Of a stretch of 64,000 nt of DNA, positions 20,094 through 55,437 are shown in pieces. The notes beneath the pieces were generated by a model that was not told the origin of the DNA, searched no databases, and saw only the letters and a list, made by a program, of their open reading frames with translations. The stretch's first letter is position 1. Each line of letters opens with the position of its first letter. Both the position numbers and the translations under genes were made by a program. The stretch is from Metallosphaera sedula DSM 5348 (GTDB lineage: Archaea > Thermoproteota > Thermoprotei_A > Sulfolobales > Sulfolobaceae): assembly GCF_000016605.1 (NCBI RefSeq), contig NC_009440.1, positions 1,116,001 through 1,180,000 of the forward strand, in the 5' to 3' direction.

Positions 20094-20609
20094 GTTTCAA
20101 ACCCTCGAAGGATGTCTACAAACGACACGTCTACACCCCCCCCCCGGTCGTGAGTGTGGGAAGCGGGGATCCCATTTCAAACCCTCCAAGGATGTCTACA
20201 AACTGGGGTCCATTGTGATGAAGATTTCGGAGAAATTGAAGAGTTTCAAACCCTCGAAGGATCTCTACAAACTCCCCTGTTACGACTGAACCAATACTTG
20301 ATTGCACGTGTTTCAAACCCTCGAAGGATCTCTACAAACCTCTACACACTAAGAGTAGCTGAGACCATAAAAACCAAGTTTCAAACCCTCGAAGGATCTC
20401 TACAAACACATCATAGCCATGTCACCGAACGGAACTCTGAGGTACTTGTTTCAAACCCTCGAAGGATCTCTACAAGCATTCAACTAGTGGCGTCTCCTGA
20501 AGGGCAACTATTGTTTCAAACCCTCGAAGGATCTCTACAAGAAGGGCTATTCTGCGTACGCTTCCCACCTCTGGAGGCAGTTTCAAACCCTCATAGGATC
20601 TCTACAAAC
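20094..20609 (-). CRISPR. CRISPR array 1: 8 repeats, 7 spacers
   Basis: 30-base repeats start at 20094, 20174, 20243, 20310, 20378, 20448, 20513 and 20580. On the plus strand they read GTTTCAAACCCTCGAAGG then ATCTCTACAAAC. Spacers are 50, 39, 37, 38, 40, 35 and 37 bases. I infer minus-strand transcription because the reverse repeat ends TTTGAAAC, a typical 8-base 5' handle. The two leftmost repeats have GTC for CTC, and the second begins with A. The three rightmost (20448, 20513, 20580) also have changes, so the leader-proximal end is degenerate too. The first spacer is long and has an 11-C run. Confidence 0.95.
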
Positions 20610-21823: not shown

Positions 21824-22736
21824 GTTTGTAGAGATCCTTTGAGGGTTTGAAACAAATAGTACTGACTTGATACGGCTAGGTGATAATAGCGTTTGTAGAG
21901 ATCCTTTGAGGGTTTGAAACGCAAAGGCCTTTCCCACACTCTCCAAGGGAGTATGAAGTTTATAGAGATCCTTTGAGGGTTTGAAACCTTACGTCTTGAA
22001 AGTACTCGATTATCAATTTAACAGGTTTGTAGAGATCCTTTGAGGGTTTGAAACGCGTCAATTCTCTAAAAAGAAAAGGCTAGCGTGAAGGGGACTTGTA
22101 GTGATCCTTTGAGGGTTTGAAACTAAGTGAACCATGGGTATTCCCCCTCCGGGGGAACTTCGACTTGTAGTGATCCTTTGAGGGTTTGAAACTCGGAAAG
22201 AACATATACATCCTCCCCGTGGTTCCCGGGTTTGTAGTGATCCTTTGAGGGTTTGAAACGTGTTTGTCCCCATCTTTTGATGGGGCAGCTGCTCCTCTTT
22301 GTAGAGATCCTTTGAGGGTTTGAAACTATACTTTGGAAAATCAGTATATCTCTTGTATCTTCTGTTTGTAGTGATCCTTTGAGGGTTTGAAACTCGATAG
22401 CGAACCTGATAACTTCGCTTCTATTCAGTCTGTTTGTAGTGATCCTTTGAGGGTTTGAAACATAGACGTATCGACCCGCCGTATAGCATCAAGAAGATAG
22501 TTTGTAGTGATCCTTTGAGGGTTTGAAACTACACGACGCGATCACACTCACATGCCCGCGTGTCGCCGTTGTTTGTAGTGATCCTTTGAGGGTTTGAAAC
22601 ATAACTCTATACGCTCTCACACGGCTGAGGTCGAGGAGCTTGTAGTGATCCTTTGAGGGTTTGAAACCCACCTTCACCCTCGCCTTACGGCCCTTTTCCT
22701 TCCTCAGTTTGTAGAGATCCTTTGAGGGTTTGAAAT
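21824..22736 (+). CRISPR. CRISPR array 2: 14 repeats, 13 spacers
   Basis: Repeats start at 21824, 21891, 21958, 22025, 22094, 22163, 22230, 22297, 22364, 22432, 22500, 22571, 22638 and 22707. They read GTTTGTAG[A/T]GATCC then TTTGAGGGTTTGAAAC. Spacers are 37-41 bases. Two repeat versions are mixed: GTAGAG in repeats 1, 2, 4, 8 and 14 (GTATAGAG-type in 3) and GTAGTG in the others. The last repeat ends AAAT and marks the leader-distal end; degenerate repeats follow. The handle would be TTTGAAAC. Compared with array 1 the central bases are TTTGAGG rather than TTCGAGG. Confidence 0.96.
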
Positions 22737-42637: not shown

Positions 42638-42913
42638 ATGAGCGCAATGGGAGTTGATACGGACGCGGTAGAGGTTTTAGTACCATTTTGCGCTGATAAA
42701 GAATATTATCTATATATCAAGAATAATGGAAATATAGAAGTTTATATCAACAACATTTCCATAAAATTACCTTATGATCGATTCGTCGCAGCCTTGGCGC
42801 CTGCAATGTTTACTAAACTACTAAAAGTGAATATTAGCGAAGCAAGGTCAGATCGACTCTCGTTCAGCTATAACAACAACTTTACCGTTTATTGCTCGGA
42901 GGTCTTAAGATGA
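42638..42913 (+). CDS. Unknown 91-residue protein, in frame with the gene before it
   Basis: From ATG 42638: MSAMGVDTDAVEVLVPFCAD, then beta-like KEYYLYIKNNGNIEVYINNI and a C-terminal FSYNNNFTVYCSEVLR. Codons between the preceding TAG and this ATG also look coding (GDDELSKYVKLYYNTSK), without a second stop. So it is either the C-terminal domain of the 41801 gene after a nonsense mutation, or a separate small gene. It overlaps the next gene by ATGA at 42910-42913. Confidence 0.55.
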   Translation: MSAMGVDTDAVEVLVPFCADKEYYLYIKNNGNIEVYINNISIKLPYDRFVAALAPAMFTKLLKVNISEARSDRLSFSYNNNFTVYCSEVLR

Positions 42914-44583
42914 GTGAACGTAAAATGAAAGATGTTGTAAATCCAATTATAGTTGTAAATTTAAGTAGGGAGAGGGTCGAAGAAACTAATAGGACCGACA
43001 AGATTTATGAAAAGGATTCCCTTAGCAGAAGGGAAGAGAGTATACAGATACTGAGGACAATCCCCAAATTCTATTTCTTCGCGCATATCAACATTAATCC
43101 GAATTTTAATAGCTCGTTATCTTTTCCTAACCCAAGTAGACTGAAGGTCTCCCATCCCCGTATCAAGATAGCATCATGGAAACCCTTAGCTCTTCCTAAA
43201 CTCAATGACTCGATCTCCCTCCCCTCAACAACCCTATACCGCACAGTTCATACAATCTTTATCCGTGATCATTGGGAGCCTGCTACCGTTTATTTAAATG
43301 GAAAAGTTGCATTACCTCAACCATTCAAACCAAGCGTCTCTGTCCTAAGACCTCTGTTCTCGACATGGGGTTATCACAGCCAAATACAGCTAAATGGATC
43401 TCTTACACAGAATATTTCCCAACAACTGAAGGATATGCCCACGACTCAAAGACCAATGACCGTCTCTCATGACCCTGGCAACCCAGGTGGGGATAGCGAA
43501 GAGTTAGATCTCCTTGATAAGTTCACCAAACTTCTCACGGGAGTTGGAAGTGCCTTTAGCGACAGGTGGCAACACATCTGGATCTATGACTGCGATCCCC
43601 TCAAGGATACCCTCGCCATGATTGCAGTTGAGCTGATGAACGTCGCAGACAAGAGGACTATTCCCGTGTTTGTGAACGTATCTGCGAGCGAAATGGATCC
43701 GCTCCTCTCCTATTTTCTCCTAGGAAATGAGGGGGTATACGTACTGGAGGGAACAGTTCAGGATCAGGCTAGAGTGGGAAGAATCAAGGAAAGACTCAGG
43801 AGGTCCTTTGGTTCAGGACTGGTTTACGTGATTGCAAGTAAGGAGTTTCACGACGAGATACTTTCAATGGCAGAGACAGGAGGACCGAATCGGGAACCAA
43901 TGGAGAGTGCTAGGGAGGTCAAGTCGTTTGAATGCAACAAGATACTCAACCTCGTACGCTGGCTCACCCTGATCTCCTCAGGTTTCTCCGCACCACCAGA
44001 ACTGGCTGACCTGACCACTGGCCATCGTCTCCTATACTCCAAGGTACTTGACAAGGCGGACAGTCTCCTCCGCGAAATGGAGGCAAAGATACCGGGTTTA
44101 GCCCTCTTGGATAGACCCAATGCGGGCGAGGGTAGGGAGAGCATGGACCATAGGCTCCTCAAGAGGCTTGCGCTATACGATCTCGTGAGCAACAGGGGGA
44201 TAGATGTTAACAAGGTTTACGTTGAGGGAGTTGGGATTCACGGCAGGTTGTCGGAGTGCGGCGAACTTGTGCCCGACCTGTTCGTTGAGACTCTTGGGTT
44301 AGCAATAGATGTCAAGACCAGCTACGGAGCCCTGCCTGCGGACGAACTATCTGAGGCCGTTGAGAAGTACTCAAAATGTGGAAGAGTTGAGGTGGTATTC
44401 AGACCCCTACCGGCCCTACTCTTCCTGAAGGACATAGTTGCAAAGCTCAAGGCATATAGGGAGACCGGGGTGAAGGTAAGCGTAAAGATTCCAGCCATGA
44501 CTGAGGGACGACCTTCCCTCATAGACCTAGCTGACGCATTCAAACGTCTTAAGGCTATGGGCTTGGTTAAAGCCGACAGTTAG
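42910..44583 (+). CDS. Unknown protein with C-terminal PD-(D/E)xK nuclease-like domain
   Basis: 557 residues from ATG 42910, which overlaps the previous stop. The N-terminal 200 residues are unrecognised, with a Pro-rich patch (KASWKPLALPKLN-like). The middle (residues 210-330) has alternating hydrophobic strands and helices (HIWIYDCDPLKDTLAMIAVE, GVYVLEGTVQDQARV) resembling a Rossmann-like fold. The C-terminal domain shows E439 (VYVEGVG), P455-D456 (VPDLFVET) and D467-V-K469 (AIDVKTSYG), the spacing of PD-(D/E)xK nucleases, and then RVEVVFRPL. This suggests cleavage of nucleic acid. Substrate and trigger unknown. Confidence 0.7.
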   Translation: MSERKMKDVVNPIIVVNLSRERVEETNRTDKIYEKDSLSRREESIQILRTIPKFYFFAHININPNFNSSLSFPNPSRLKVSHPRIKIASWKPLALPKLNDSISLPSTTLYRTVHTIFIRDHWEPATVYLNGKVALPQPFKPSVSVLRPLFSTWGYHSQIQLNGSLTQNISQQLKDMPTTQRPMTVSHDPGNPGGDSEELDLLDKFTKLLTGVGSAFSDRWQHIWIYDCDPLKDTLAMIAVELMNVADKRTIPVFVNVSASEMDPLLSYFLLGNEGVYVLEGTVQDQARVGRIKERLRRSFGSGLVYVIASKEFHDEILSMAETGGPNREPMESAREVKSFECNKILNLVRWLTLISSGFSAPPELADLTTGHRLLYSKVLDKADSLLREMEAKIPGLALLDRPNAGEGRESMDHRLLKRLALYDLVSNRGIDVNKVYVEGVGIHGRLSECGELVPDLFVETLGLAIDVKTSYGALPADELSEAVEKYSKCGRVEVVFRPLPALLFLKDIVAKLKAYRETGVKVSVKIPAMTEGRPSLIDLADAFKRLKAMGLVKADS

Positions 44584-45121
44584 TAGGAGGAGCCTTGATT
44601 TGTATTGCGAACAGGTCCCATGGATCAGTAGAGAGAGTCGAGTCCTCTCAAGTTTGTGTGAAGTAATCATCGAGGTAATTGCCACTGTGAGTAAGGAAGT
44701 GGAACAGGTGCAAGATTGCCATTACGATCTCGTCACAGCGTAGTTTGCAACTCGGAGTGATGGCTATCTTCAGGAACCAAGCCTTTTGGAAGAGAGTCTT
44801 TTACAATCTCTTCACCGCCTCCCTGTAAACCGAATCCAGAAACTCGTAATCGTGAATTATGCTCATCTTCTCAAGCTGTTGCAGAATGTTACTCAGGGTG
44901 TAACTAGGCGGGAAAACACAAGACTTGGTATGATGGTTAGTCAGCTGGGAGCTCGGTTACTGCGAGTTTACAAGGGATGGGTTTCGAGTAAGGCTTGTAC
45001 TTGAATAACTCAAGGCATGTTCAATATCTACTGGATCGTGAATTCCTTGATAAGTCGAGGAGTTAATTGCAAATTAAATGAAAAAAGTTTATCTTAATGA
45101 TTCAAACTGTGAAGAGACTTA
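44584..45121 (-). pseudogene. Gene-free stretch with the tail of a decayed AAA ATPase
   Basis: Only 44801-44912 (minus) is readable: PPSYTLSNILQQLEKMSI, then YEFLDSVYREAVKRL and a stop at 44803-44801. This is the winged-helix end of archaeal ATPases (compare the one ending at 24916). The rest of the gene is not recognisable, and no other feature is seen in the stretch. Confidence 0.5.
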
Positions 45122-45592
45122 CTAACTGTCTCCCTCTCCAGAGGATCCTTGATCTGGGCTGTTATCGTAGGTGGAATTTGTGTTGGTGGAGTTGTCTGGG
45201 GAGTTGTCGTACGTGGAGTTGGTGGAGTTGTCGTGATGACTGTCGTCGTAAGTGGAGTTGGTGTATGTCCCATTCTGGTACGAGTCGTCATGGTGACCGT
45301 CATCAGAGTAGGTCGAGTTGGTTGAATCGTCGTGATGACTGTCGTCGTAAGTGGAGTTGGTGGAGTTGTCTGGGGAGTTGTCGTGGATTATCGCAGTTGA
45401 GTTATCCGGCGTATTATCATTGGTGGAGTTGGTTGAATTATCCGGGGAGTTATCGTGGGTTCCCTGTTGACCTTGAACGGCCGGATTTATCTGATGTATT
45501 ATATTACTAGTCACATTATTTACATTGGATCCTAGAACCACAGCACCTGAGGCCAGTACAAGGCCCAACAGGATTAGGAGTATTTTACTCAT
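45122..45592 (-). CDS. Secreted Asp/Asn/Ser/Thr repeat protein
   Basis: 156 residues. A cleavable or anchoring N-terminus (MSKILLILLGLVLASGAVVL) precedes a mature part made almost wholly of degenerate repeats of DNSTNSTYDDS and HHDDS type. Histidine-rich and Asn-x-Ser/Thr-rich, so probably heavily N-glycosylated and perhaps metal-binding on the surface. Nearby secreted proteins share similar tails. Promoter: ttataaataacg about 28 bases before the ATG, with a GTTTCA motif just upstream. No family known; low-complexity sequence limits the call. Confidence 0.7.
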   Translation of the reverse strand: MSKILLILLGLVLASGAVVLGSNVNNVTSNIIHQINPAVQGQQGTHDNSPDNSTNSTNDNTPDNSTAIIHDNSPDNSTNSTYDDSHHDDSTNSTYSDDGHHDDSYQNGTYTNSTYDDSHHDNSTNSTYDNSPDNSTNTNSTYDNSPDQGSSGEGDS

Positions 45593-45644
45593 GGCATCAC
45601 CGAGATTCCCTTGCCTAACGTTATTTATAAGGAATCCCGAGGTA

Positions 45645-45676
45645 GCGTTTCATTCCGTTCTAGTGGAACGTGAGTA
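45645..45676 (-). promoter_or_regulatory. GTTTCA/TTCCG motif upstream of 45592
   Basis: gcgtttcattccgttc followed by tagtggaacgtgag: GTTTCA, TTCCGTTC and the inverse GGAAC within 30 bases. It sits directly upstream of the TATA box (about 45619-45630). Same words recur before neighbouring genes. Confidence 0.55.
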
Positions 45677-45905
45677 GCCGTAAACACACCGTGATTAGTT
45701 TCGTGAAAAGGGGGATATGAATGTTTCAATAGATTATCTTCTCCAATCTAGATAGATGGGGGAGATGTATCGTGTCCCTATGGACAAATCCGCAACTTGA
45801 GAAACACGATAACCTGGTTCCTTGAGTCACACGCACTCCTTGAACTTACTTACGTGACGAGACAGGTTTTGAACCCTATACCTCACTATGTTAAAATCCC
45901 TTGAA
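45677..45905. other. Intergenic
   Basis: Holds two further weaker motif-like words (agtttcgtgaaa near 45697, atgtttcaat near 45721). No gene. Confidence 0.4.
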
Positions 45906-45936
45906 AAGTTTCGTTCCGTTCACGTTTCAATATTTC
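45906..45936 (+). promoter_or_regulatory. GTTTC-GTTCCG-GTTTCA motif upstream of 45984
   Basis: aagtttcgttccgttcacg then tttcaatatttc: two GTTTC words around TTCCGTTC. It precedes the micro-protein gene by about 50 bases, where a TATA-like ttaataag also occurs. Confidence 0.55.
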
Positions 45937-45983
45937 GGCTGAGTTCCTAATTAAGAAGAAACGAGAGTTAATAAGTGATAAAA

Positions 45984-46115
45984 ATGATGGCGCAAGAACT
46001 TGAAGAAAGGAGGGAACAAAAGGAGATAAGCGAGGGTAAACTAACCCTCTATTTGGCCTTAGTTGTGGTAGCATATGTCATTGTTGATATCTTAGGCTAT
46101 CTGCATATATTTTAA
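45984..46115 (+). CDS. 43-residue single-helix membrane protein
   Basis: MMAQELEERREQKEISEGKL, then one helix TLYLALVVVAYVIVDILGYL and a short HIF end. Start may be ATG 45984 or 45987. It shares KISE-KLTLY and VAYVIVD-L with the minus-strand gene at 47286-47405, so the two are paralogues on either side of the HTH regulator. Conservation of two diverged copies argues they are real genes. Function unknown; a subunit of the nearby membrane complex is a plausible inference. Confidence 0.65.
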   Translation: MMAQELEERREQKEISEGKLTLYLALVVVAYVIVDILGYLHIF

Positions 46116-46279
46116 AAGTTTTTTGTTTTTCTTTTTATCTTGTATGTGTAAAATATAAAGGCAAAAGTTGAGTACTTTTTCTGTCTCTCCCCCGCTTACC
46201 TAACAAGGTTAAGCCCTTAGTTAGCATGAATATAACCTTGGGTAGGTGAAAGTGAGTGCGCAGTGACTAGACCCGAAAG

Positions 46280-47134
46280 TCAGGTTGGCTTATCGGGAGG
46301 TGGTTGGGACACCTCATACCAGATTTTCCCACCTTCCCTCCTCTCCACAAGGTAACCTAGTTTCACGAGCTTCTTGATCCTTCTATAAACGGTGGACTTG
46401 GGTAGTCCCGTGTCTCGGACTGCGTCTGATAGGGTTCTTGCTCCCCTCTTGAAGGACTCCAATACCATTATATCACGATCGTTGAGCTCCTGAGTTGTGA
46501 GCTCCGCCTCCTCCTCTTTCTCATCCTCCTCGACAGTCTGACTCGCTTGTGCTTGGCTCATCTGTTGGTTCTGGTTCACCTGCTCAGTCACAGGTCTCCT
46601 CCTAGACCTGAAATATTCATATAGGAAGAAACCAACAACGGCATCAGTAACCAGAACAACGACTAAGATTATTAGATCCTCCTTACCGAATCCACTCGAG
46701 CTTTGAGAAGATGTGGAGTAAAGCACCTCTAGAGAGCTACCCTGCAAAGTTAGGTTGTATAGGTTTCCCCTGGTTTCCAATGATGTGGGTGGCGGGTATA
46801 TATAGGCAAAGGTATAGGTTCCGGGAACAATGACGTTGAAGGTAACGTTGTAGGGCTCTGTTCCCTGGATTACGCCCTTGGGGAAACTGGCAACGTAGAT
46901 CACCGTGACCCGAGATGTATTATAGAAGAATAGGTAACCTCCAGTAAGATTAAACTTCGAACCTATAACCCGAAGATCTGTGATGTTATCTCCTATAACG
47001 TGAAATGTGGACACGTTGTTAAGATGAGCCACAACGGTTCCGTTGTAATATATGACAACGGATTGCTGACCGTATGTCAGCAAGGACGCTAATGTTAGGA
47101 GCATCAGAAGGCCAAGATATCTCATCGAATACAT
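46280..47134 (-). CDS. Membrane-anchored winged-helix regulator
   Basis: 284 residues. Signal or first helix at 1-23 (GLLMLLTLASLLTYG), an extracytoplasmic beta-rich domain with six or more Asn-x-Ser/Thr sites (about 24-150), and a membrane helix (LIILVVVLVTDAVVGFFLYE). After a basic RSRRRP comes a Gln-rich linker and a C-terminal winged helix (DRDIMVLESFKRGARTLSDA, LPKSTVYRRIKKLVKLGYL). This topology suits a sensor reading an outside signal and binding DNA inside; ArnR of Sulfolobus, which regulates archaella, is a conceptual parallel with a different layout. The GTTTCA motifs around it are its candidate sites. Start ATG 47134 or 47125. Confidence 0.72.
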   Translation of the reverse strand: MYSMRYLGLLMLLTLASLLTYGQQSVVIYYNGTVVAHLNNVSTFHVIGDNITDLRVIGSKFNLTGGYLFFYNTSRVTVIYVASFPKGVIQGTEPYNVTFNVIVPGTYTFAYIYPPPTSLETRGNLYNLTLQGSSLEVLYSTSSQSSSGFGKEDLIILVVVLVTDAVVGFFLYEYFRSRRRPVTEQVNQNQQMSQAQASQTVEEDEKEEEAELTTQELNDRDIMVLESFKRGARTLSDAVRDTGLPKSTVYRRIKKLVKLGYLVERREGGKIWYEVSQPPPDKPT

Positions 47135-47285
47135 ATTTGACGAGATTTTTAAATTTCTTTTGTTAACTGTGGGAGTACTTTCAAGACTGAAATGGACACT
47201 TCATATCATGATACAGAGATATCCTGTGTTCGGACTTTTCAAAAAGGGAGAACGCAGTATGAATTTCAAAAAAATGTTTATGGGT

Positions 47286-47405
47286 TTACATTACATTGAA
47301 TCCGCTTTGCATTATGGCCAGTACATCAACTATTACATATGCTACGGCTGCTATTAACATGTATAGGGTTAGTTTAGCTTCACTTATCTTTTCCTTTATC
47401 TCCAT
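47286..47405 (-). CDS. 39-residue single-helix membrane protein, paralogue of 45984
   Basis: MEIKEKISEAKLTLYMLIAA then VAYVIVDVLAIMQSGFNVM. A strong ribosome site (gaggtgaa) precedes the ATG at 47405. It aligns with the 43-residue protein over KISE-KLTLY and AYVIVD-L, with one membrane helix. It lies just downstream of the Rieske-cytochrome gene's end, with a gap containing GTTTCA-type motifs that would be its promoter. Confidence 0.7.
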   Translation of the reverse strand: MEIKEKISEAKLTLYMLIAAVAYVIVDVLAIMQSGFNVM

Positions 47406-47455
47406 TTACTTCACCTCTAAAGTGATATGGGTGTGCCTCCCTTTTTAAGAATCCC

Positions 47456-47490
47456 GTGAAAAAGTGAAACAAAACATGAAACGGAACCAA
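47456..47490 (-). promoter_or_regulatory. GTGAAAC/TGAAACGGAAC motif upstream of 47405
   Basis: cgtgaaaaagtgaaac then aaaacatgaaacggaacc. TGAAACGGAAC is the inverse of GTTCCGTTTCA. TATA-like ctttttaagaatc (about 47436-47448) is immediately downstream on the minus strand. Confidence 0.55.
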
Positions 47491-47606
47491 GGAACCTATG
47501 AAAAGCTTAGGTGAAACTCAACAAAAATTGTAAGCTACCTAGATCTTATTTCTCCCTTGAGGCGCCTAGATCCACGAACTGACCAAGCCCCTCAAATAGC
47601 CTTCTT

Positions 47607-48791
47607 TCAATTATCATTTCCACCATCGTCGCCCCCATAACCGGTGGTTGATCCAGAGGTATTAGAGGATGAAGAAACGTTTCCAATGTAGACGTTGCCA
47701 GAGCTGTCAACTGTAACGGGGTACTGCGGAAGCGGATATGGAGCCGGACCAGCAATAACTCCTCCATTGCTTGGGGAGAACTCTGCCCCATGACAGGGAC
47801 ACGCTATGAGCTGTTGCCCTGGCAGATAACCAACCGTACAACCTGCATGTGTACACACTGCGCTATAGGCCTTTAATTGACCATTAGGTAACTTAACCAA
47901 GATCCCTGGGGAGCCGTTGGGAAGCCTGAACAGTTTGGCTGAGTTGGGACCCAACTGGTTTGCATTGGCTATGGGTCCGTATGACGCTTGAGTCTGAAGA
48001 CTTCCCTGGGATCCGCTTGAGGAGGGAGACGATGGGGCTGAATTCCTTCCAAGTATTGCCACTAGAGCTAGGGCAAGAGCCGTGACTCCCACGGTCTTCA
48101 GGAAGGTTCTTCTTCCCTCGTCCACAACCTTCTCCACTCTTTTCCTAGAAGGAGTCCAGTCATAATGGGCCCTTAGATATCCCTCGTCAAGGAGCCCATC
48201 CTTCATAGCCTCTAGAAGCGGTCTGTTGGACGGCATTAAAGACAGATACACATGAAAAATTGCCGAGGATGTAAGGAGAAGGGCAGACAGAACGTGAAGA
48301 ATTAGCAAGTCCTGGAAGTAAGGGAACAGTAAGCTAAGTTTCAATGGGTTCCACAAAGCAAGTCCCGTGAGCCCAAGGCCCATTATGGATAAGACCACCC
48401 CGACGTGATAGGCTCTCTTGAGAGGATGATACTTTCCCTTGGCCCTCTTAACCCTGAGATCTAGACTTAGCTTCATCTCCCCACTTCTACCGTCACTTAC
48501 CCAATGATACAGGAGGAGAAGCCCAATGGGTAATAGGGTCCAATCGTGAAAGTTGAGTAGACCAAGGTTGGTAGTTGCCAGCATGTAATATCCTGAGATC
48601 CCCGCAATTAGCAGCGCACCAAAGGAGGCCCAATGAAATATCCTCTGCCCCTCGGAGTACAGGGGCACTGTTCTCTTCCCGTTGGTAGGAGGACTTGCCT
48701 CAACCACTTTTCCTCTAGCTAAGTGATAAAGAAAAATTCCCGCCAACGAGATAAGGATTACGAATTCGGCAAGGAATTGTAGGAATTGCAT
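47607..48791 (-). CDS. Cytochrome b-type membrane domain fused to a Rieske domain
   Basis: 394 residues from ATG 48791, chosen because cttataaataacc lies about 28 bases upstream; the frame is open to 48914. Residues 1-230 have about five helices with paired His (RIFHWASFGALLIAG, LLLLYHWVS, KRAYHVGVVLS, LLILHVLSALLLTSSAIFHV), like the cytochrome b561/formate-dehydrogenase gamma family. Then DEGRRTFLKTVGVTALALAL is a Tat-like twin-arginine helix, and the Rieske domain has CTHAGC and CPCHGAEF ligating a 2Fe-2S cluster outside. The C-terminus is Ser/Gly/Asp/Asn-rich. In other organisms these are separate subunits. Role: surface electron transfer, donor and acceptor unknown. Confidence 0.82.
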   Translation of the reverse strand: MQFLQFLAEFVILISLAGIFLYHLARGKVVEASPPTNGKRTVPLYSEGQRIFHWASFGALLIAGISGYYMLATTNLGLLNFHDWTLLPIGLLLLYHWVSDGRSGEMKLSLDLRVKRAKGKYHPLKRAYHVGVVLSIMGLGLTGLALWNPLKLSLLFPYFQDLLILHVLSALLLTSSAIFHVYLSLMPSNRPLLEAMKDGLLDEGYLRAHYDWTPSRKRVEKVVDEGRRTFLKTVGVTALALALVAILGRNSAPSSPSSSGSQGSLQTQASYGPIANANQLGPNSAKLFRLPNGSPGILVKLPNGQLKAYSAVCTHAGCTVGYLPGQQLIACPCHGAEFSPSNGGVIAGPAPYPLPQYPVTVDSSGNVYIGNVSSSSNTSGSTTGYGGDDGGNDN

Positions 48792-48902
48792 GGGTTGCTC
48801 TAATCTTAGGTTATTTATAAGAAATTCCCAAACTTTTTTGTACCGCTGGCTAATCACTTGGATAAATACTTTTATAGGTTTAAATAAATGGAAAATAATC
48901 GG

Positions 48903-48947
48903 TGTTTCACTCATTTATTGGTTTCAGTGGAACGCGAAACACCACGC
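48903..48947 (-). promoter_or_regulatory. GTTTCA cluster upstream of 48791
   Basis: ggtgtttcactc, ggtttcagtggaac and gcgaaacacc within 45 bases, about 85 bases before the TATA box of the Rieske-cytochrome gene. The outer words form an inverted pair (gtgtttc / gaaacac). Confidence 0.6.
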
Positions 48948-49075
48948 TTTTGGGCAGTATGACCTGGCCCCCACAGTATAGGGAGGGAAAAAGCCTTAAT
49001 AATCTAGAATAGATAATTACTCTATATAGGCTCTTTAAAGAAATATTAAAGACCATCTAAAAAATGCTGATGTAA

Positions 49076-49909
49076 TCAATTATCTCCACCACTATCAGAA
49101 CCTGAAGAGTTCGAGGAATCACTAGAGCCTTGACCCGAGTCCTGTGAACCTGATTGGGAACTTGAGGATCCCTGGGAACTTGAGGAGCTCTGACCTGAGT
49201 CTTGGGAGGAGCTTTGATCTGATGTGCCTCCCTGATCCGAATGGCTCTGTGAAGTTGAATTGGTAACATTATTTTCATGTTCCTGTGAGGAGTTTACCGT
49301 GGAATTTACATTGGTCGAGTTGATCACGTCCTGACTGGTCACGTTACTGGTCGTGTTCTGGTCTTGGGAATCCACATGGTTCTGAATGTCCGTGGAGGTG
49401 TTGTTTTCATGCCCTGTGGAGCCTGTCACGTTTCCATAAACGTTTAGCGGACCCACGTACTGATAATAAAGTCCCAGCAGCTCAATCACCGTCTGGGGAG
49501 TCGGCGACTCATTCAGGACACCCGAGACAAACATGGTAACTTGAAAATTCCTATCCTCTGCTGTGAACTGAGCCTTAGTATTGTTTAGGGTCAGTGAAAT
49601 GGAGTTTCCGTCATCCAGATAAATCAAAACGTAGAGGGAGCTGAAACCGTGCGGGTTAATCCCAATATAATAGATTCCCGTTTTGGGGAACGATAAATTG
49701 AACTTGTACTCGTAACTGAAACCGCTCCCGTTGGTGACGGTGATTATCTTGGTGTTGTTATATACAGTTAGCCCACTGATACTGATGGGGGTTGAAGCGC
49801 TTGTCTGCTGGGGGTGAGTAGTGACATAAAGTTCGTAACCAAGAAAGATATTGGATATCAGAACCACAATGGTTATGCCTATGAGTAAGTTCTGCCTCAT
49901 CTCAATCAT
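49076..49909 (-). CDS. Membrane-anchored surface protein with Ser-rich tail
   Basis: 277 residues. N-terminal helix NLLIGITIVVLISNIFLGYE is a signal-anchor. Residues 35-140 are a beta-rich domain (SISGLTVYNNTKIITVTNGS, FPKTGIYYIGINPHGFSSLY). Then come Asn/Ser/Thr/Asp/Gln repeats from about 165, ending in Ser-Gly-Asp tracts. Many N-glycosylation sites. Like the 45122 and Rieske proteins it ends in Asp/Asn. No family recognised; probably extracellular, next to the pilus operon and divergent from it. Confidence 0.7.
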   Translation of the reverse strand: MIEMRQNLLIGITIVVLISNIFLGYELYVTTHPQQTSASTPISISGLTVYNNTKIITVTNGSGFSYEYKFNLSFPKTGIYYIGINPHGFSSLYVLIYLDDGNSISLTLNNTKAQFTAEDRNFQVTMFVSGVLNESPTPQTVIELLGLYYQYVGPLNVYGNVTGSTGHENNTSTDIQNHVDSQDQNTTSNVTSQDVINSTNVNSTVNSSQEHENNVTNSTSQSHSDQGGTSDQSSSQDSGQSSSSSQGSSSSQSGSQDSGQGSSDSSNSSGSDSGGDN

Positions 49910-49985
49910 GATAATTTAGTGAGTTTTCTTTATAAGATTATGATGCGGAATAATGCCCTAAATACACGGGAACTGGGACCTGCTT

Positions 49986-50072
49986 CCGTTTCACTGTTTC
50001 ACTGAAACAAATATATGTTGGAAATATAGTGTTTCACTTATTTTCATTGAGAAAAATTCTTTTGTGAAACAG
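49986..50072. promoter_or_regulatory. Divergent promoter with three GTTTCA-type sites
   Basis: cttccgtttcactg-tttcactgaaac at about 49983-50007, gtgtttcacttattttc at about 50029-50045, and ttgtgaaacaggtg at about 50062-50075, then gttccgg. TATA of the pilin operon is tactttttaagac near 50087. It serves both the pilin operon and the surface-protein gene. Confidence 0.6.
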
Positions 50073-50112
50073 GTGTGTTCCGGTTGTACTTTTTAAGACA
50101 CTTTTGACACCC

Positions 50113-50703
50113 ATGTTTCACAGAGAAAAAATGTTACACCTAAAAGGCAAAAAAATCAGTTCAAAGGGTAGAAAGGGACTCTCAAACATTGTGGGGTCCC
50201 TCCTCATGATAGTATTAACAATCGTGGCAGCCCTGCTTTTGGGGCACTTCGCCTTCGGTTTATTCTCGTCGAACAGCCACAATGCCCAGATCTCAGTGTC
50301 TGACGTGAGTTTGATAAATCCCGGAGGTACAGGACTTCAGGCTGGTGGAAGTGGCGTAAGTGTTGCTCTAACTATAACTGATACTGGTAACGACCCTGTG
50401 AACATAACTTCCATCACCATAGGTGGTGTGACGTTCCAGAATCCTACGTTAGGAGGAAAAACTACTTACGTTACAATACAGCCAGGACAGAGTGTATCCT
50501 TCACTGCAACAATAACTGGGGCAACAACTGGCTTAACGGGTACTCTGACCTCTAGCTCTGGAATTACCTACTCTTCAGGTACTAATGCTGTTAGCTCAAG
50601 CACGTTCAACGTGGGTAGCACTGTGGTGGTTCAGGTTAGTGCTATCGACATAGTGACTCACCAGGCTCTGGCGACCCAGATAAGCACCGTGGTCCAGGAC
50701 TAA
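50113..50703 (+). CDS. Type IV pilin-like protein 1
   Basis: About 196 residues from ATG 50113 (ATG 50131 is also possible). The class III signal is KGRKGLSNIVGSLLMIVLTI: PibD would cut after the Gly, leaving a hydrophobic helix that packs in the pilus core. The rest is Thr/Ser/Gly-rich and beta-like, as in archaeal adhesive pilins and archaellins. First and largest of four pilin-like genes; most likely the major pilin. The motif GTTTCAC recurs across its own start. Confidence 0.8.
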   Translation: MFHREKMLHLKGKKISSKGRKGLSNIVGSLLMIVLTIVAALLLGHFAFGLFSSNSHNAQISVSDVSLINPGGTGLQAGGSGVSVALTITDTGNDPVNITSITIGGVTFQNPTLGGKTTYVTIQPGQSVSFTATITGATTGLTGTLTSSSGITYSSGTNAVSSSTFNVGSTVVVQVSAIDIVTHQALATQISTVVQD

Positions 50704-50722: not shown

Positions 50723-51211
50723 ATGGTGAAGGCAAGAAAGGGACTCTCCTCAGTGATGGGGTCCCTTTTTTTGATCGTTCTGGTCTTTGTTGCGTGGACC
50801 TTCTTATTCAGGTATGCGCTCTTTTACGTTCATGTGGCACAGGGTAACCCGGATATCTCCCTCTCCTCCACCGTGATACAGTTGAATGGAGGTGTGAACA
50901 ACGGAGGTGTATGCATGGTGGAGGTGAACGTGAAGAATGGAGATCTCCCCTTCACTTTAACGGGAATAGTGGTAAGTGTGAATGGAAATGTGGTGTTTAA
51001 CAAAAACGCCGGATCTGTTTACACATCGTTTAATCAGACACCTAATGCTGTGTCTCTTCCCTTGAGCTTGAGACCTAACCAGGATTACACGATATATTTC
51101 TTTATTGCTCAGCAACCTATCAACACCCAACACCCCGTGGTCTCCATAGAGGGATACTTCGGATCGAATTACATTGAGATTCAATCCTCTGCACAGGTGA
51201 TGTATGGATGA
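50723..51211 (+). CDS. Type IV pilin-like protein 2
   Basis: 162 residues. MVKARKGLSSVMGSLFLIVL is a class III signal with cleavage after Gly. The following helix has aromatic residues (FVAWTFLFRYALFYV), unlike pilin 1. A beta-rich C-terminal part contains one Cys. 19 bases after pilin 1 with its own ribosome site (gaaggtg), and its stop overlaps the next start. Minor pilin or tip subunit by inference. Confidence 0.78.
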   Translation: MVKARKGLSSVMGSLFLIVLVFVAWTFLFRYALFYVHVAQGNPDISLSSTVIQLNGGVNNGGVCMVEVNVKNGDLPFTLTGIVVSVNGNVVFNKNAGSVYTSFNQTPNAVSLPLSLRPNQDYTIYFFIAQQPINTQHPVVSIEGYFGSNYIEIQSSAQVMYG

Positions 51212-51636
51212 GGAAAGGTCTCTCCGAGGTAGTGGCTGCATTCTTGTCTCTCGTGGTCACCCTATCCCTGATGGGGATCTTCCTGGCGTACAATAGTCAG
51301 TATATTCTTCCCTCTAGTAACATTGTCCAGACTCCCTCAGTTCATCTCCTTTCCGTCCTATGGACCTATAATAACGGAGGAACAGGTTGCGTTTACGTAG
51401 AAAATTACGGATCAACACCTATAACCATAGCCTACGCCGTGGTAGGAAACAATCCAACTCCGTTGCCTGTGACAATATGCTATTACCCAAGCAACGGAAC
51501 TACTCCAGCTCCCTATAACTCAAACACCCTCTTACCCGGGTATATCTACATTCTTAAGGTCACGGGGTTAGGAGGAGGGAATACTCAGGTCACGTTTTTC
51601 GAAACTGACGGTTCTTTCTTCGAGGTGAGTTTATGA
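51208..51636 (+). CDS. Type IV pilin-like protein 3
   Basis: 142 residues. MRKGLSEVVAAFLSLVVTLS: an unusually short signal of three residues before the Gly, then the hydrophobic core helix. Two Cys in the mature part (GGTGCVYVEN and VTICYYPSN) could form a disulfide. Overlaps neighbours on both sides (ATGA). Probably a minor pilin. Confidence 0.77.
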   Translation: MRKGLSEVVAAFLSLVVTLSLMGIFLAYNSQYILPSSNIVQTPSVHLLSVLWTYNNGGTGCVYVENYGSTPITIAYAVVGNNPTPLPVTICYYPSNGTTPAPYNSNTLLPGYIYILKVTGLGGGNTQVTFFETDGSFFEVSL

Positions 51637-52127
51637 AACTGAATAAGGGTTTGGGAACCGTAATTGGAACGGTAATCTTTCTTTTAATTGCAATATCCGT
51701 GATAGGATCTCTCCTTCTCATAAGTTACAGATCTCAACTTTTCGCAACGGAGATATCTCAAGCGCAAACCATCACATCCCTGAAGAATGCAGAGCATCTC
51801 AAGGTCAAACTGCCGAATAATTTAGGTGGGAATAATGGTGGTGGGAATTCAGTGTACATATGTGTTCAGAACACGGGTACTGTTGCGTCTCAAGTTCGAT
51901 GGGTGATTGTGGCTCAGGCCCAGTTAATTAATAATCAAATAAGTATATCACCAGTATGTGTCATAAGCAAAAATGTAGTCATCCAGCCAGGTCAAACAGT
52001 TCAGATTCAACTTCCCACTAATACCCTAACCTATCTCTTAAACGGAGATGCCGTTGGAGTGGTAACCGCTTACGGAAACGTGTTCTGGAATGGAGGGAAT
52101 CTGTTAGAAAATCTCGGAGGTGGTTAA
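51633..52127 (+). CDS. Type IV pilin-like protein 4
   Basis: 164 residues. MKLNKGLGTVIGTVIFLLIA is the class III signal. A longer helix follows and then an Asn/Gly-rich loop (NNLGGNNGGGNSVY) before a beta domain with two Cys (ICVQN, PVCVISK). Ends NLGGG directly before the ATPase, overlapping by one base (TAATG). Minor pilin. Confidence 0.77.
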   Translation: MKLNKGLGTVIGTVIFLLIAISVIGSLLLISYRSQLFATEISQAQTITSLKNAEHLKVKLPNNLGGNNGGGNSVYICVQNTGTVASQVRWVIVAQAQLINNQISISPVCVISKNVVIQPGQTVQIQLPTNTLTYLLNGDAVGVVTAYGNVFWNGGNLLENLGGG

Positions 52128-53578
52128 TGATGGAGCCGAGAGACGTCAAGGTAATAAGACCCAAGTATCAGGGCGATATCATCCAGGAGTACGACGTCAA
52201 GGGGGTTTACCCCGATTACGATGTTGCCTTCCCCAAGGTTAAGATCATCAGGAACCAAACTGACGTGTATTACGACATTGAGGAGCCCAACATAAACCAG
52301 TCCCAACTTGAGCTCCTGAAGAAGGCGCACAAGGCACTCTACTACACCCTCAAGCCCTCTGAGGTGGACCGCCTGGTCACCTCCTACCTAGACTACGTTG
52401 GTAGGGACAAGGTTATAGGCTATTACGTGGTCAGGGACATCTTAAGATATGACGTCCTCACAACCCTCCTAGACGACGAGCAGATAGAAGATGTGTCCTA
52501 CTCTCCCACCGCCCCATCCTCACCCGTGTTCGTGTTCCACAGAGGGTACGGAACCTGGATCTCCACTAACGTGATCCTTGACTCCAGCGAGGCCAACTAT
52601 CTGGTTCAGAAGATCGCCTTCAAGAGCGGTAAATCCATCACCCTAGCTAGGCCAATCCTAGACGCCATGACCCCTGAGGGTTACCGTATTGCTCTGACCT
52701 ACGGAAGGGAGGTCTCTCCCACTGGCTCAACTATCTCCATAAGGAAGCCGATCAAGGAGGTCTGGACTCTCCCCTACATGGTAGTAAGGAGGAGGATAAT
52801 GCCACCCCTCGTAGCCTCAGCGCTCTGGTTCGTCCTTCAGAATCGCGGTGTCATACTCGTGGTCGGGAGATCTGGTTCGGGTAAAACGACCCTGATCAAC
52901 GCCTTGCTCACAGTTGCCCCACCCTCCTGGAAGATAGTCACGGTGGAGGAGATACCAGAGCTAAGGGTAATCTACCCCAACTGGGTGAGGCTTGTGTCCA
53001 GGAAGCCAACCCTAATGACCGAGTACAGTGAGTCTGCTGAGATTCCACTGGATCGACTCATCTCCCACACCTTCAGGGTTAGGCCCGACCTGGTCTCGGT
53101 GGGTGAGGTAAGGTCTAAGGAGGAGATAAGGGAGTTCATTCACTCAGTAGCTGCAGGTCACGGTGGAATCACTTCGCTACACGCTGAGGACTTTGCCTCC
53201 CTAAAGGCTAGGTTCAACTATGCTGGGGTAGACGACTCCTTCTTCGCGATTGTGTCCATGGTGGTATTCGTGAACTCCTACAACGTTAGTGGTAAACTAG
53301 TAAGGAGGGTCCAGGAGGTCGGTGAGGTAGTCCTGAGGGACGGTGAGGCACATTACGTTCCGCTTGCGACCTACTCTCCCGTGTCTGACTCTTACGTGGT
53401 GGACATACTCCACAGCAAGAGGTTAATGACCATGGCCTCACTCAAGGGTTACACTGAGGGAGATCTTAAGGCAAACTTAGAGAAGAAGGTTAAGTTTATG
53501 CTAGAGACCGCCGGTCTACCGCAACCTGAATACGAGAAAAGGATAAGGTCCTACTACGAGGAGGAGGGTATAGTATGA
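52127..53578 (+). CDS. Type IV pilus assembly ATPase
   Basis: 483 residues of the GspE/ArlI superfamily. The N-terminal domain contains DDEQIEDVSYSPTAPSSPVF, typical of archaeal secretion ATPases. VVGRSGSGKTTLINALL is Walker A (about 246-254). Asp box TVEEIPELRV, Walker B region RPDLVSVGEVRSKEE, and His box GHGGITSLHAED are all present. It hydrolyses ATP in the cytoplasm to extrude the pilin fibre. Resembles AapE or UpsE in role; which subfamily cannot be told by eye. Confidence 0.88.
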   Translation: MMEPRDVKVIRPKYQGDIIQEYDVKGVYPDYDVAFPKVKIIRNQTDVYYDIEEPNINQSQLELLKKAHKALYYTLKPSEVDRLVTSYLDYVGRDKVIGYYVVRDILRYDVLTTLLDDEQIEDVSYSPTAPSSPVFVFHRGYGTWISTNVILDSSEANYLVQKIAFKSGKSITLARPILDAMTPEGYRIALTYGREVSPTGSTISIRKPIKEVWTLPYMVVRRRIMPPLVASALWFVLQNRGVILVVGRSGSGKTTLINALLTVAPPSWKIVTVEEIPELRVIYPNWVRLVSRKPTLMTEYSESAEIPLDRLISHTFRVRPDLVSVGEVRSKEEIREFIHSVAAGHGGITSLHAEDFASLKARFNYAGVDDSFFAIVSMVVFVNSYNVSGKLVRRVQEVGEVVLRDGEAHYVPLATYSPVSDSYVVDILHSKRLMTMASLKGYTEGDLKANLEKKVKFMLETAGLPQPEYEKRIRSYYEEEGIV

Positions 53579-55437
53579 TTGCCAAGACCAAGGTAAAATC
53601 CACTAGTATTGTGAAGACCAAGGATCTTAACTTCGTTGTAATGTTAGCGATTGCCTCAGTAGCGACTGCCCTAGTTCCTCTCCTGTTCTTCCTCAAGGTC
53701 ACGATCCTGGGCTTCCCTGCCTGGCTCGTTCTACTCCCGTTACCGGTGTATGCCTGGCCTCCCGCAATTCACAGAACACTACACAGGGACGAGACAATCT
53801 TCTCCATGATGGAGAGGCTGGTGGCTGGAAGTAAGGTGTTGGAGTGGCCAGGGAGATGGTGTAATGAGATGGTTAACCTATATTACGTGGGCCTGCCGGT
53901 CTCCGCGATGCTCGGAATGGCGCTCATGATGATGTATCCACTTGCATCCCCAGCAGGAGGTGCCATAGTCCTAGTGACCTACTTCCTACCTTGGATGAGA
54001 TACATGGACATCAGGTCAACCCTCAAGAGGCAGGTTGAGCTAGAGCTCCCCGTTGTGTCTCTCCTGATGTGGGGTCTCTCAGAGATTGGATATGACGTCA
54101 TGAGGATAATTAACGCCCTTAGAAAGGAGACCAGCGAGTTAGTTGCCATACCCAGGGAGTTCGCAAAGATCCACCGCGACTTCACTACCTTTAACCTTTC
54201 CCCAGATGAGGCCGTTCTGAGGGAGACGGACAATCACCCCTCGAAGCTCTTCGAGAGGTTACTGGGCGGAGCAATCACGATCTCCTCAATAGGTGGAGAA
54301 CTCTCAGTCCACCTGTCCAGGACTACCCAGGAGATCCTCGCCTGGATGAAGGAGACTTGGGAGGCTTACGGAAGGGCCGTCTCGAACCTTGGGGAACTCT
54401 CAATGTTGTTCCTCCTCATGGTTCCACTTGTGGCCATATGGTTCGGAATAGTTCAAGGTAACGCGACTTACGGAGTTGATATGGTGACCTACTTCCTAGT
54501 ACCCCTGATCGGTGCCTCGCTCTACTTTTACGTGTCGCTTCAGGCCCCTCTTGATAAGGTCCCAGCCAGGGGAAACCTGAAGAAGGGGTTAGTCGGGCTC
54601 GCCGTAGGTGTCGGAATTGACGCATTCCTACTATTCAAGGGAATTCAGTACGAATGGTTGCTCTTGGCGCTACCAATTATGGGCTTCTCCCTTGGGTATG
54701 GTTACTCTGCCCAGAGGGCAATCCAAAGGAAGAACAGCATAGAGGCTCATATGGCCGTCTTCGTGAGGTCTATTGGGGAACATATTAGGACAACTGGGGA
54801 CAACCTTTTCACCGCAATCTCAAAGCTCATAGGGAATAAGGGATTCGGGAAGGAGATCAACATGATGTTGAAGAGATATCTTATCCTGTCCACCGTAGAG
54901 GAGGAACCTGTCCCCGAGTCCGAATCATGGATGGGTAAAACCATCTTTGAGATCATGGTTAAGGCTGACAGGGAAGGTGTTCTCAGATATGACATAATGA
55001 AGAGATTGGCCGAGTTCGCAGACTCATACTACGACGCCATTCTTGCCAAGAGGAGGGGACTTTACATGTTCCTTGGATCTGCCATAGCCTCCCCACTAAT
55101 CCTAGTCGCCATGATAGCCCTGACCTACTTTGTGTTGAACCAGATCTCGAGCCTAGCCCAGATACCGGCAATACAACAAACGCCTGGAGTCCAGTTCCCA
55201 CCTCAAGCCCAGGCCCTACTTCAGTTCTTCTCGGTGTTCCAGAACGTGGGACAGGTCATACAATCCATGATCCCTGGACTTGAGGTTGCCATCGTTGAGA
55301 CAGGGATCATATATGGAATCCTATTGGCCAAGGGTTACGACGGAACGGTTAGGAACACGTTCAGGATATTTGAGCTCATGGTGGTCTCCGTGATAGCTGT
55401 AATGATATTCCAGTTTATAGTCCTTAAGATCATCTAG
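53575..55437 (+). CDS. Pilus platform membrane protein (GspF/TadC duplicated)
   Basis: 620 residues with two GspF-like domains. Helices at about 20-60, 100-140, 275-350 and 500-620 flank soluble helical blocks. VELELPVVSLLMWGLSEIGY and AHMAVFVRSIGEHIRTTGDN match the start of T2SSF domains. This is the polytopic platform that couples the ATPase to pilus growth, as AapF/UpsF/ArlJ do. Four-base overlap with the ATPase. The last gene clearly in the operon. Confidence 0.87.
   Translation: MIAKTKVKSTSIVKTKDLNFVVMLAIASVATALVPLLFFLKVTILGFPAWLVLLPLPVYAWPPAIHRTLHRDETIFSMMERLVAGSKVLEWPGRWCNEMVNLYYVGLPVSAMLGMALMMMYPLASPAGGAIVLVTYFLPWMRYMDIRSTLKRQVELELPVVSLLMWGLSEIGYDVMRIINALRKETSELVAIPREFAKIHRDFTTFNLSPDEAVLRETDNHPSKLFERLLGGAITISSIGGELSVHLSRTTQEILAWMKETWEAYGRAVSNLGELSMLFLLMVPLVAIWFGIVQGNATYGVDMVTYFLVPLIGASLYFYVSLQAPLDKVPARGNLKKGLVGLAVGVGIDAFLLFKGIQYEWLLLALPIMGFSLGYGYSAQRAIQRKNSIEAHMAVFVRSIGEHIRTTGDNLFTAISKLIGNKGFGKEINMMLKRYLILSTVEEEPVPESESWMGKTIFEIMVKADREGVLRYDIMKRLAEFADSYYDAILAKRRGLYMFLGSAIASPLILVAMIALTYFVLNQISSLAQIPAIQQTPGVQFPPQAQALLQFFSVFQNVGQVIQSMIPGLEVAIVETGIIYGILLAKGYDGTVRNTFRIFELMVVSVIAVMIFQFIVLKII

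Follow-up and report, generated by a model that had tools for sequence, protein, structure and literature searches.

GTTYCR half-site arrays as probable sites of a membrane-anchored winged-helix regulator in a surface-gene cluster of Metallosphaera sedula and related Sulfolobaceae

Few cis-elements have been identified in archaea, and very few transcription factors that act from the membrane. In Sulfolobus acidocaldarius, ArnR and ArnR1 are membrane-bound regulators of the archaellum and type IV pili (PMC6396743), and transmembrane transcription regulators, e.g. ToxR and TcpP with their small companion proteins, have been described (PMC10269533). The ultraviolet (UV) element A(N)TTTC of the Sulfolobus DNA-damage response, to which the ups pili and tfb3 belong, is a short T-rich sequence immediately ahead of the B recognition element (BRE) of pilus and other genes (PMC5817253). 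The locus described here lies in a stretch of 64,000 nucleotides (the window), positions 1,116,001-1,180,000 of the 2,191,517-bp single-contig genome of Metallosphaera sedula DSM 5348 (NC_009440.1, coded G000), where half-sites of the form GTTYCR are arrayed upstream of genes for surface proteins, micro-proteins, a cytochrome b-Rieske fusion and a type IV pilus operon. Judged by comparative genomics, these arrays are probably the sites of a family of membrane-anchored winged helix-turn-helix (wHTH) one-component proteins, represented here by the protein encoded at 46280-47134, which would control a small surface regulon. No description of the motif or the regulator was found in the papers searched, nor were expression data for the cluster genes found in open text.

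A preliminary description, made from the sequence alone, had named GTTTCA words with TTCCG or GGAAC in five stretches (45645-45676, 45906-45936, 47456-47490, 48903-48947 and 49983-50075), and the words are present in all five. The fixed-orientation composite that it proposed, GTTCCGTTTCA, fared worse, with one exact copy and one single-mismatch copy in 64 kb; it was rejected as a unit since 25 of 100 shuffles did equally well and no excess was found. The recurrent unit is a 6-bp half-site, GTTYCR, in either orientation. Among 179 such sites in 55 family promoters the words were GTTTCA (97), GTTCCA (38), GTTCCG (25) and GTTTCG (19). Non-coding DNA of the cluster contains 20 half-sites in 1514 bp against 90 in 51,430 bp elsewhere in the same genome, the latter drawn from a 400-kb sample and short stretches, which amounts to 7.5 times as many per base (Poisson p about 1e-11). 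For GTTTCA alone the counts were 12 and 44, a ninefold difference per base (Poisson p about 1e-8). These counts are above chance. Two CRISPR-like arrays (clustered regularly interspaced short palindromic repeats) at window positions 20243-20580 and 21848-22662, with GTTTCA every ~67 bp, were kept out of the background counts because GTTTCA in their repeats inflates naive motif counts. Unbiased ranking of 6-mers recovered the same word: GTTTCA/TGAAAC was top in the 55 regulon promoters of the family and top in the 31 held-out ones, and was among the top two in the six window promoters when 299 M. sedula promoters served as controls.

Conservation was assessed in a set of 31 Sulfolobaceae genomes. 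A triple pattern, derived from surface-gene promoters and defined without the promoters of other genes, gave 27 matches against 5 for the reversed pattern; the matches span seven genera, and as the genomes are related, p-values overstate independence. No fewer than 22 of the 27 matches lie within 5 kb of a regulator orthologue. In G014 the surface gene is displaced and keeps its element, and one further match lies there, 11 kb from the regulator; another (G013:277288) stands 68 bp ahead of an extra copy of the second secreted gene. Paired half-sites were found upstream of the surface gene in 17/17 cases, the second secreted gene in 14/14, the pilin gene in 7/7 and the cytochrome gene in 4/4 (42/42 in total), compared with 7/593 control promoters (1.2%), some of which sit within operons; single half-sites occur in about 28% of the controls. 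The element thus recurs in promoters that had no part in its definition, namely those of the second secreted gene and its unlinked copy in related genomes, of the displaced genes for cytochrome-Rieske in G010 and the surface protein in G014, and of the pilin operons in G004, G019, G028 and G029, which are 29 kb to over 1 Mb away from the regulator. The proposal of one regulon with its own membrane regulator is thus supported by comparative genomics, and the element, judged by its retention across Sulfolobaceae, is old.

The protein in the middle of the cluster has the architecture claimed for it, with a match to Pfam HTH_IclR (PF09339, 1.6e-9, 37.9 bits, cut-off 22) and predicted transmembrane (TM) helices. 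In an AlphaFold2 model from an 18-row alignment (mean predicted local distance difference test score 82), a short N-terminal signal/TM helix (residues 3-19) precedes a beta ectodomain (25-141), after which a TM helix (151-178) and a linker of low confidence lead to the C-terminal wHTH domain (203-275). The helix-turn-helix (HTH) is thus of IclR type, and the predicted presence of a DNA-binding domain and a TM helix in one polypeptide places the protein among one-component transmembrane transcription regulators. The polypeptide ends after the wHTH domain and gave no match to the IclR effector domain. The nearest structural neighbours of the ectodomain were the N-domain of M1 aminopeptidases and Ost1-like proteins (best Z about 9-10), matches that reflect a common all-beta arrangement only, and assignment of a function from them was rejected. 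Relatives of the regulator occur in 31/31 Sulfolobaceae genomes, with close ones in most, and their recognition segment, LPKST/LPRTT followed by xYRR, is almost invariant, like the element. Scanning named organisms with this one regulator as the query gave no matches, and a relationship to haloarchaeal DUF7343 wHTH proteins was rejected, only one member having matched, at an E value of 0.024. G010 carries a partial tandem duplication of the regulator and the micro-gene (L037:9545-12067), its copies separated by a stretch of N.

The gene list of the preliminary description stands, with elements upstream of each of its members. Open reading frames (ORFs) and start sites were called mechanically, and the scoring of TATA boxes relied on an ad hoc matrix. 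The features of the cluster are as follows:

45122..45592 (-): ORF of a secreted Asn/Ser/Thr/Asp-rich repeat protein, 156 amino acids (aa), putative regulon member
45647..45669: GTTTCA-N11-TGGAAC, the element of the secreted repeat protein, minus-strand TATA box 16 bp downstream
45908..45929: element of micro-protein 1, GTTTCGTTCCGTTCACGTTTCA, with GTTTCG, GTTCCG and GTTTCA; TATA-like box 17 bp downstream
45984..46115 (+): micro-protein 1, 43 aa, one hydrophobic segment, conserved in G007
46280..47134 (-): candidate regulator, membrane-anchored winged-helix protein
47286..47405 (-): micro-protein 2, 39 aa, one hydrophobic segment, conserved in G006, G007 and G010; like its paralogue micro-protein 1, it is kept in Metallosphaera genomes other than this one
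47465..47487: micro-protein 2 element, a TGAAAC-N6-TGAAAC direct repeat that overlaps CGGAAC, minus-strand TATA box 15 bp off; an additional TGAAAC stands nearby at 47512
47607..48791 (-): cytochrome b561-like and Rieske fusion, 394 aa when counted from the conserved start; ORF opens to 48914
48904..48940: cytochrome-Rieske element, GTTTCA ... GTTTCA-N1-TGGAAC-N1-CGAAAC
49076..49909 (-): surface protein with N-terminal anchor helix, beta domain and long low-complexity Ser/Asn tail
49988..50008: triple element GTTTCACTGTTTCACTGAAAC between the surface protein and the pilin operon
50031..50082: extra half-sites GTTTCA (50031), TGAAAC (50065) and GTTCCG (50077), the last ending 7 bp ahead of the pilin TATA box
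50131..50703 (+): first pilin of the type IV pilus operon, Pfam Pilin_N 9.8e-8; ORF opens at 50104
50723..55437 (+): remainder of the pilus operon, with three further pilin-like genes, the last two assigned by N-terminal hydrophobic segment and synteny, a secretion ATPase (52127-53578) and a TadC/UpsF-like membrane protein (53575-55437)

The geometry of the family promoters was constrained. Direct repeats have periods of mostly 8 and 10-12 bp, inverted repeats have spacers of 0-1 or 6-9 bp with none at 2-5, and the last half-site lies 4-8 bp from the TATA box in 27 scored promoters; a second group of distances, ~15-21 bp, lies about one helical turn farther. These discrete spacings and TATA distances suit a dimeric DNA-binding protein acting with the basal machinery. 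In the window, the statement that the sites stand mostly beside the TATA box is borne out for four genes, those of the pilin, the secreted repeat protein and both micro-proteins. It does not extend to the sites of the surface-protein and cytochrome genes, which lie 50-85 bp above the best-scoring TATA box near the start codon; the cytochrome-Rieske site directly adjoins a conserved AATAAAT box.

Scanning the whole genome for paired half-sites yielded 32 direct pairs (gap 2-6) against 31 in the reversed control and 27 inverted pairs (spacer 0-9) against 22, so there is no genome-wide excess of pairs, and the simple palindrome GTTYCA-N-TGRAAC was rejected as a genome-wide marker (32 against 41 in the reversed control at one mismatch). 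Of the pair occurrences inspected, 47/59 fall within ORFs and the 12 that are non-coding represent 10 distinct places. Four of these ten fall in this 4.5-kb cluster, namely in the promoters of micro-protein 1, micro-protein 2 and the cytochrome-Rieske gene and in the surface/pilin intergenic region; the remaining six have no evident regulon logic. It follows that the motif is no general promoter feature and that M. sedula has only a small, local regulon of this kind.

The regulator resembles ArnR in being a membrane-anchored HTH one-component protein associated with pilus-type surface structures and with arrayed sites near the core promoter. ArnR, however, has an N-terminal HTH, a HAMP-like/sensor part and two C-terminal TM helices, whereas here the ectodomain is N-terminal and the wHTH domain C-terminal, and the ArnR box TCGAC-N5-GTCGA differs from GTTYCR (PMC6396743). 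No match to that box was found in window positions 45001-50300 or in the 55 family promoters. Because topology and operator differ, the protein was not filed as ArnR. With ToxR and TcpP it shares a DNA-binding domain and a TM segment in one protein, so that the class fits by architecture, and the adjacent small N-anchored extracytoplasmic proteins recall ToxS and TcpH by analogy only. ToxR-type proteins carry the DNA-binding domain at the N-terminus; both topology and target set differ from those of the regulator here.

The favoured scheme would have the ectodomain placed to sense the cell surface, while the cytoplasmic wHTH domain, probably as dimers or higher oligomers, would bind half-sites that, as close direct or inverted repeats, abut the BRE/TATA region or stand one helical turn upstream. 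The targets would be the divergent or nearby surface proteins together with the type IV pilus operon; in Metallosphaera they would also include the cytochrome b-Rieske fusion and the two single-TM micro-proteins. The surface regulon would be controlled, and more likely activated, by this domain. Activating archaeal elements directly upstream of the BRE are known, including the ups element (cited in PMC5817253), and for this reason activation is the likelier sign; blocking of transcription factor B (TFB) is possible, and sites abutting the BRE would equally suit a repressor.

Several observations weigh against assigning the sites to the large regulator. Half-site spacing is less regular in Metallosphaera promoters than in other genera, and the regulator's own promoter has no paired element in Metallosphaera and often has no element generally. 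In G004, G019, G028 and G029, which belong to three other genera, the pilin operon and its element adjoin a different, small membrane-anchored wHTH protein (L121:7075-7587, L122:7364-7813, L123:11979-12428 and L120:12438-12923). The small proteins have a hydrophobic segment, no large ectodomain and a recognition helix, TGLPKST[T/V]YRR, like that of the regulator, and such paralogues may read the same code. The binder is therefore identified only at family level, and the pilin operator in those four genomes could belong to a paralogue. A real element serving another factor, for example a small wHTH paralogue or a soluble protein encoded elsewhere, with the large regulator a mere neighbour, would account for these points; we regard it as unlikely, since the pilin operon of the window has no small paralogue next to it and the element is concentrated around the large regulator in most genera. 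It is very improbable that GTTYCR is a variant of the A(N)TTTC motif. The two are alike in word, in position upstream of the BRE and in having a pilus operon as target (PMC5817253), but A(N)TTTC is present in only 23/179 half-sites, too few for membership of that regulon, and 63/179 are GTTCCR, which is unable to match it; moreover, the UV motif is single and non-palindromic, whereas GTTYCR is arrayed and two-sided. Promoter duplication along with the genes, or chance and base composition, has in its favour the shortness of the half-sites, their frequency as single sites in control promoters and the paralogy of the two micro-proteins by sequence homology, and is the least probable reading because the paired element marks every family promoter counted and few controls, is common to unrelated genes, and keeps its spacing and TATA distance while the sequence between half-sites varies.

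Elsewhere in the genome (L101:8247-9379; G000:C1:543247-544379) a paralogous membrane-anchored wHTH protein is encoded next to a small secreted protein that belongs to the same superfamily, and GTTYCR is absent there; the same pair is found in the same setting in G008. No site is present in the promoter of this paralogous regulator locus (G000:543672), which counts in favour of the scheme above. The arrangement suggests a recurrent pairing of a membrane wHTH protein with a small anchored secreted protein. It is conceivable, though we hold it only tentatively, that the regulator belongs to a family-wide surface-sensing switch, in which the beta ectodomain reads the envelope with co-regulated N-anchored proteins as ToxS/TcpH-like partners, and pili and extracytoplasmic electron transfer (cytochrome b-Rieske) are coupled via a single arrayed operator code that several paralogous regulators in the membrane have in common.

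The surface gene adjoins the regulator in most family genomes, and in most genomes outside Metallosphaera the locus is a compact module of the regulator, the divergent surface gene and the downstream second secreted gene, with elements such as GTTTCAccatGTTTCAttctgaaaTGGAACtaatgTTTAAATG (G030), GTTTCAcaGTTTCATGGAACcaaggTTTATATGG (G016) and GTTCCGctGTTCCGGAACtaatacTTATATG (G015) in the module promoters. The surface gene and the second secreted gene are distantly homologous. Searches of known structures with the second secreted family gave no matches, and Pfam gave only weak immunoglobulin-like/PEGA ones. An unlinked second copy of this gene in related genomes has YGRAAC-N6-YGRAAC and a TATA box in its promoter, the element being followed by CTTAAAAG in five of them; among such copies (L136-L155) the paired element is strongly conserved in one genus (g6) and most Metallosphaera have only lone half-sites. 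The copy in the present genome (G000:C1:486517-486996), with only lone half-sites upstream, was not counted as a member. The secreted repeat protein has a relative in G007 only, with half-sites upstream in both genomes. The cytochrome-Rieske fusion (Pfam Rieske 5.8e-12, Ni_hydr_CYTB 8.6e-11) is confined, within the 31 genomes, to four of Metallosphaera; the paired element also precedes it in G006, G007 and G010, the last keeping GTTTCA-N7-TGAAAC at a gene displaced by 12 kb.

The cluster provides a defined operator, a candidate for the protein that binds it and a short list of targets, all conserved across Sulfolobaceae, genetically tractable species included. It allows a concrete test of the way in which these thermoacidophiles link surface proteins and pili to conditions at the cell surface, along with a respiratory protein in the case of one metal-oxidising genus. 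In G022, which we take to be S. acidocaldarius, the module adjoins the acyl-CoA cluster Saci_2232-2235, so its genes are probably Saci_2236-2238 by extrapolated numbering, with Saci_2236 the presumed regulator orthologue.

At its lower-numbered end the cluster is flanked by a 563-aa protein (window 42892-44583) without a Pfam or NCBIfam match. At the other end, the pilin matched the UpsA model at 1.1e-11 (45 of 130 bits) and the TadC-like protein matched UpsF at 5.2e-40 (138 of 400 bits); as these scores are far below the equivalog cut-offs, the pilus is related to, but separate from, Ups. The neighbouring pilus ATPase/TadC pair appears as the FlaIJ-like Msed1197/Msed1198 in PMC6593293.

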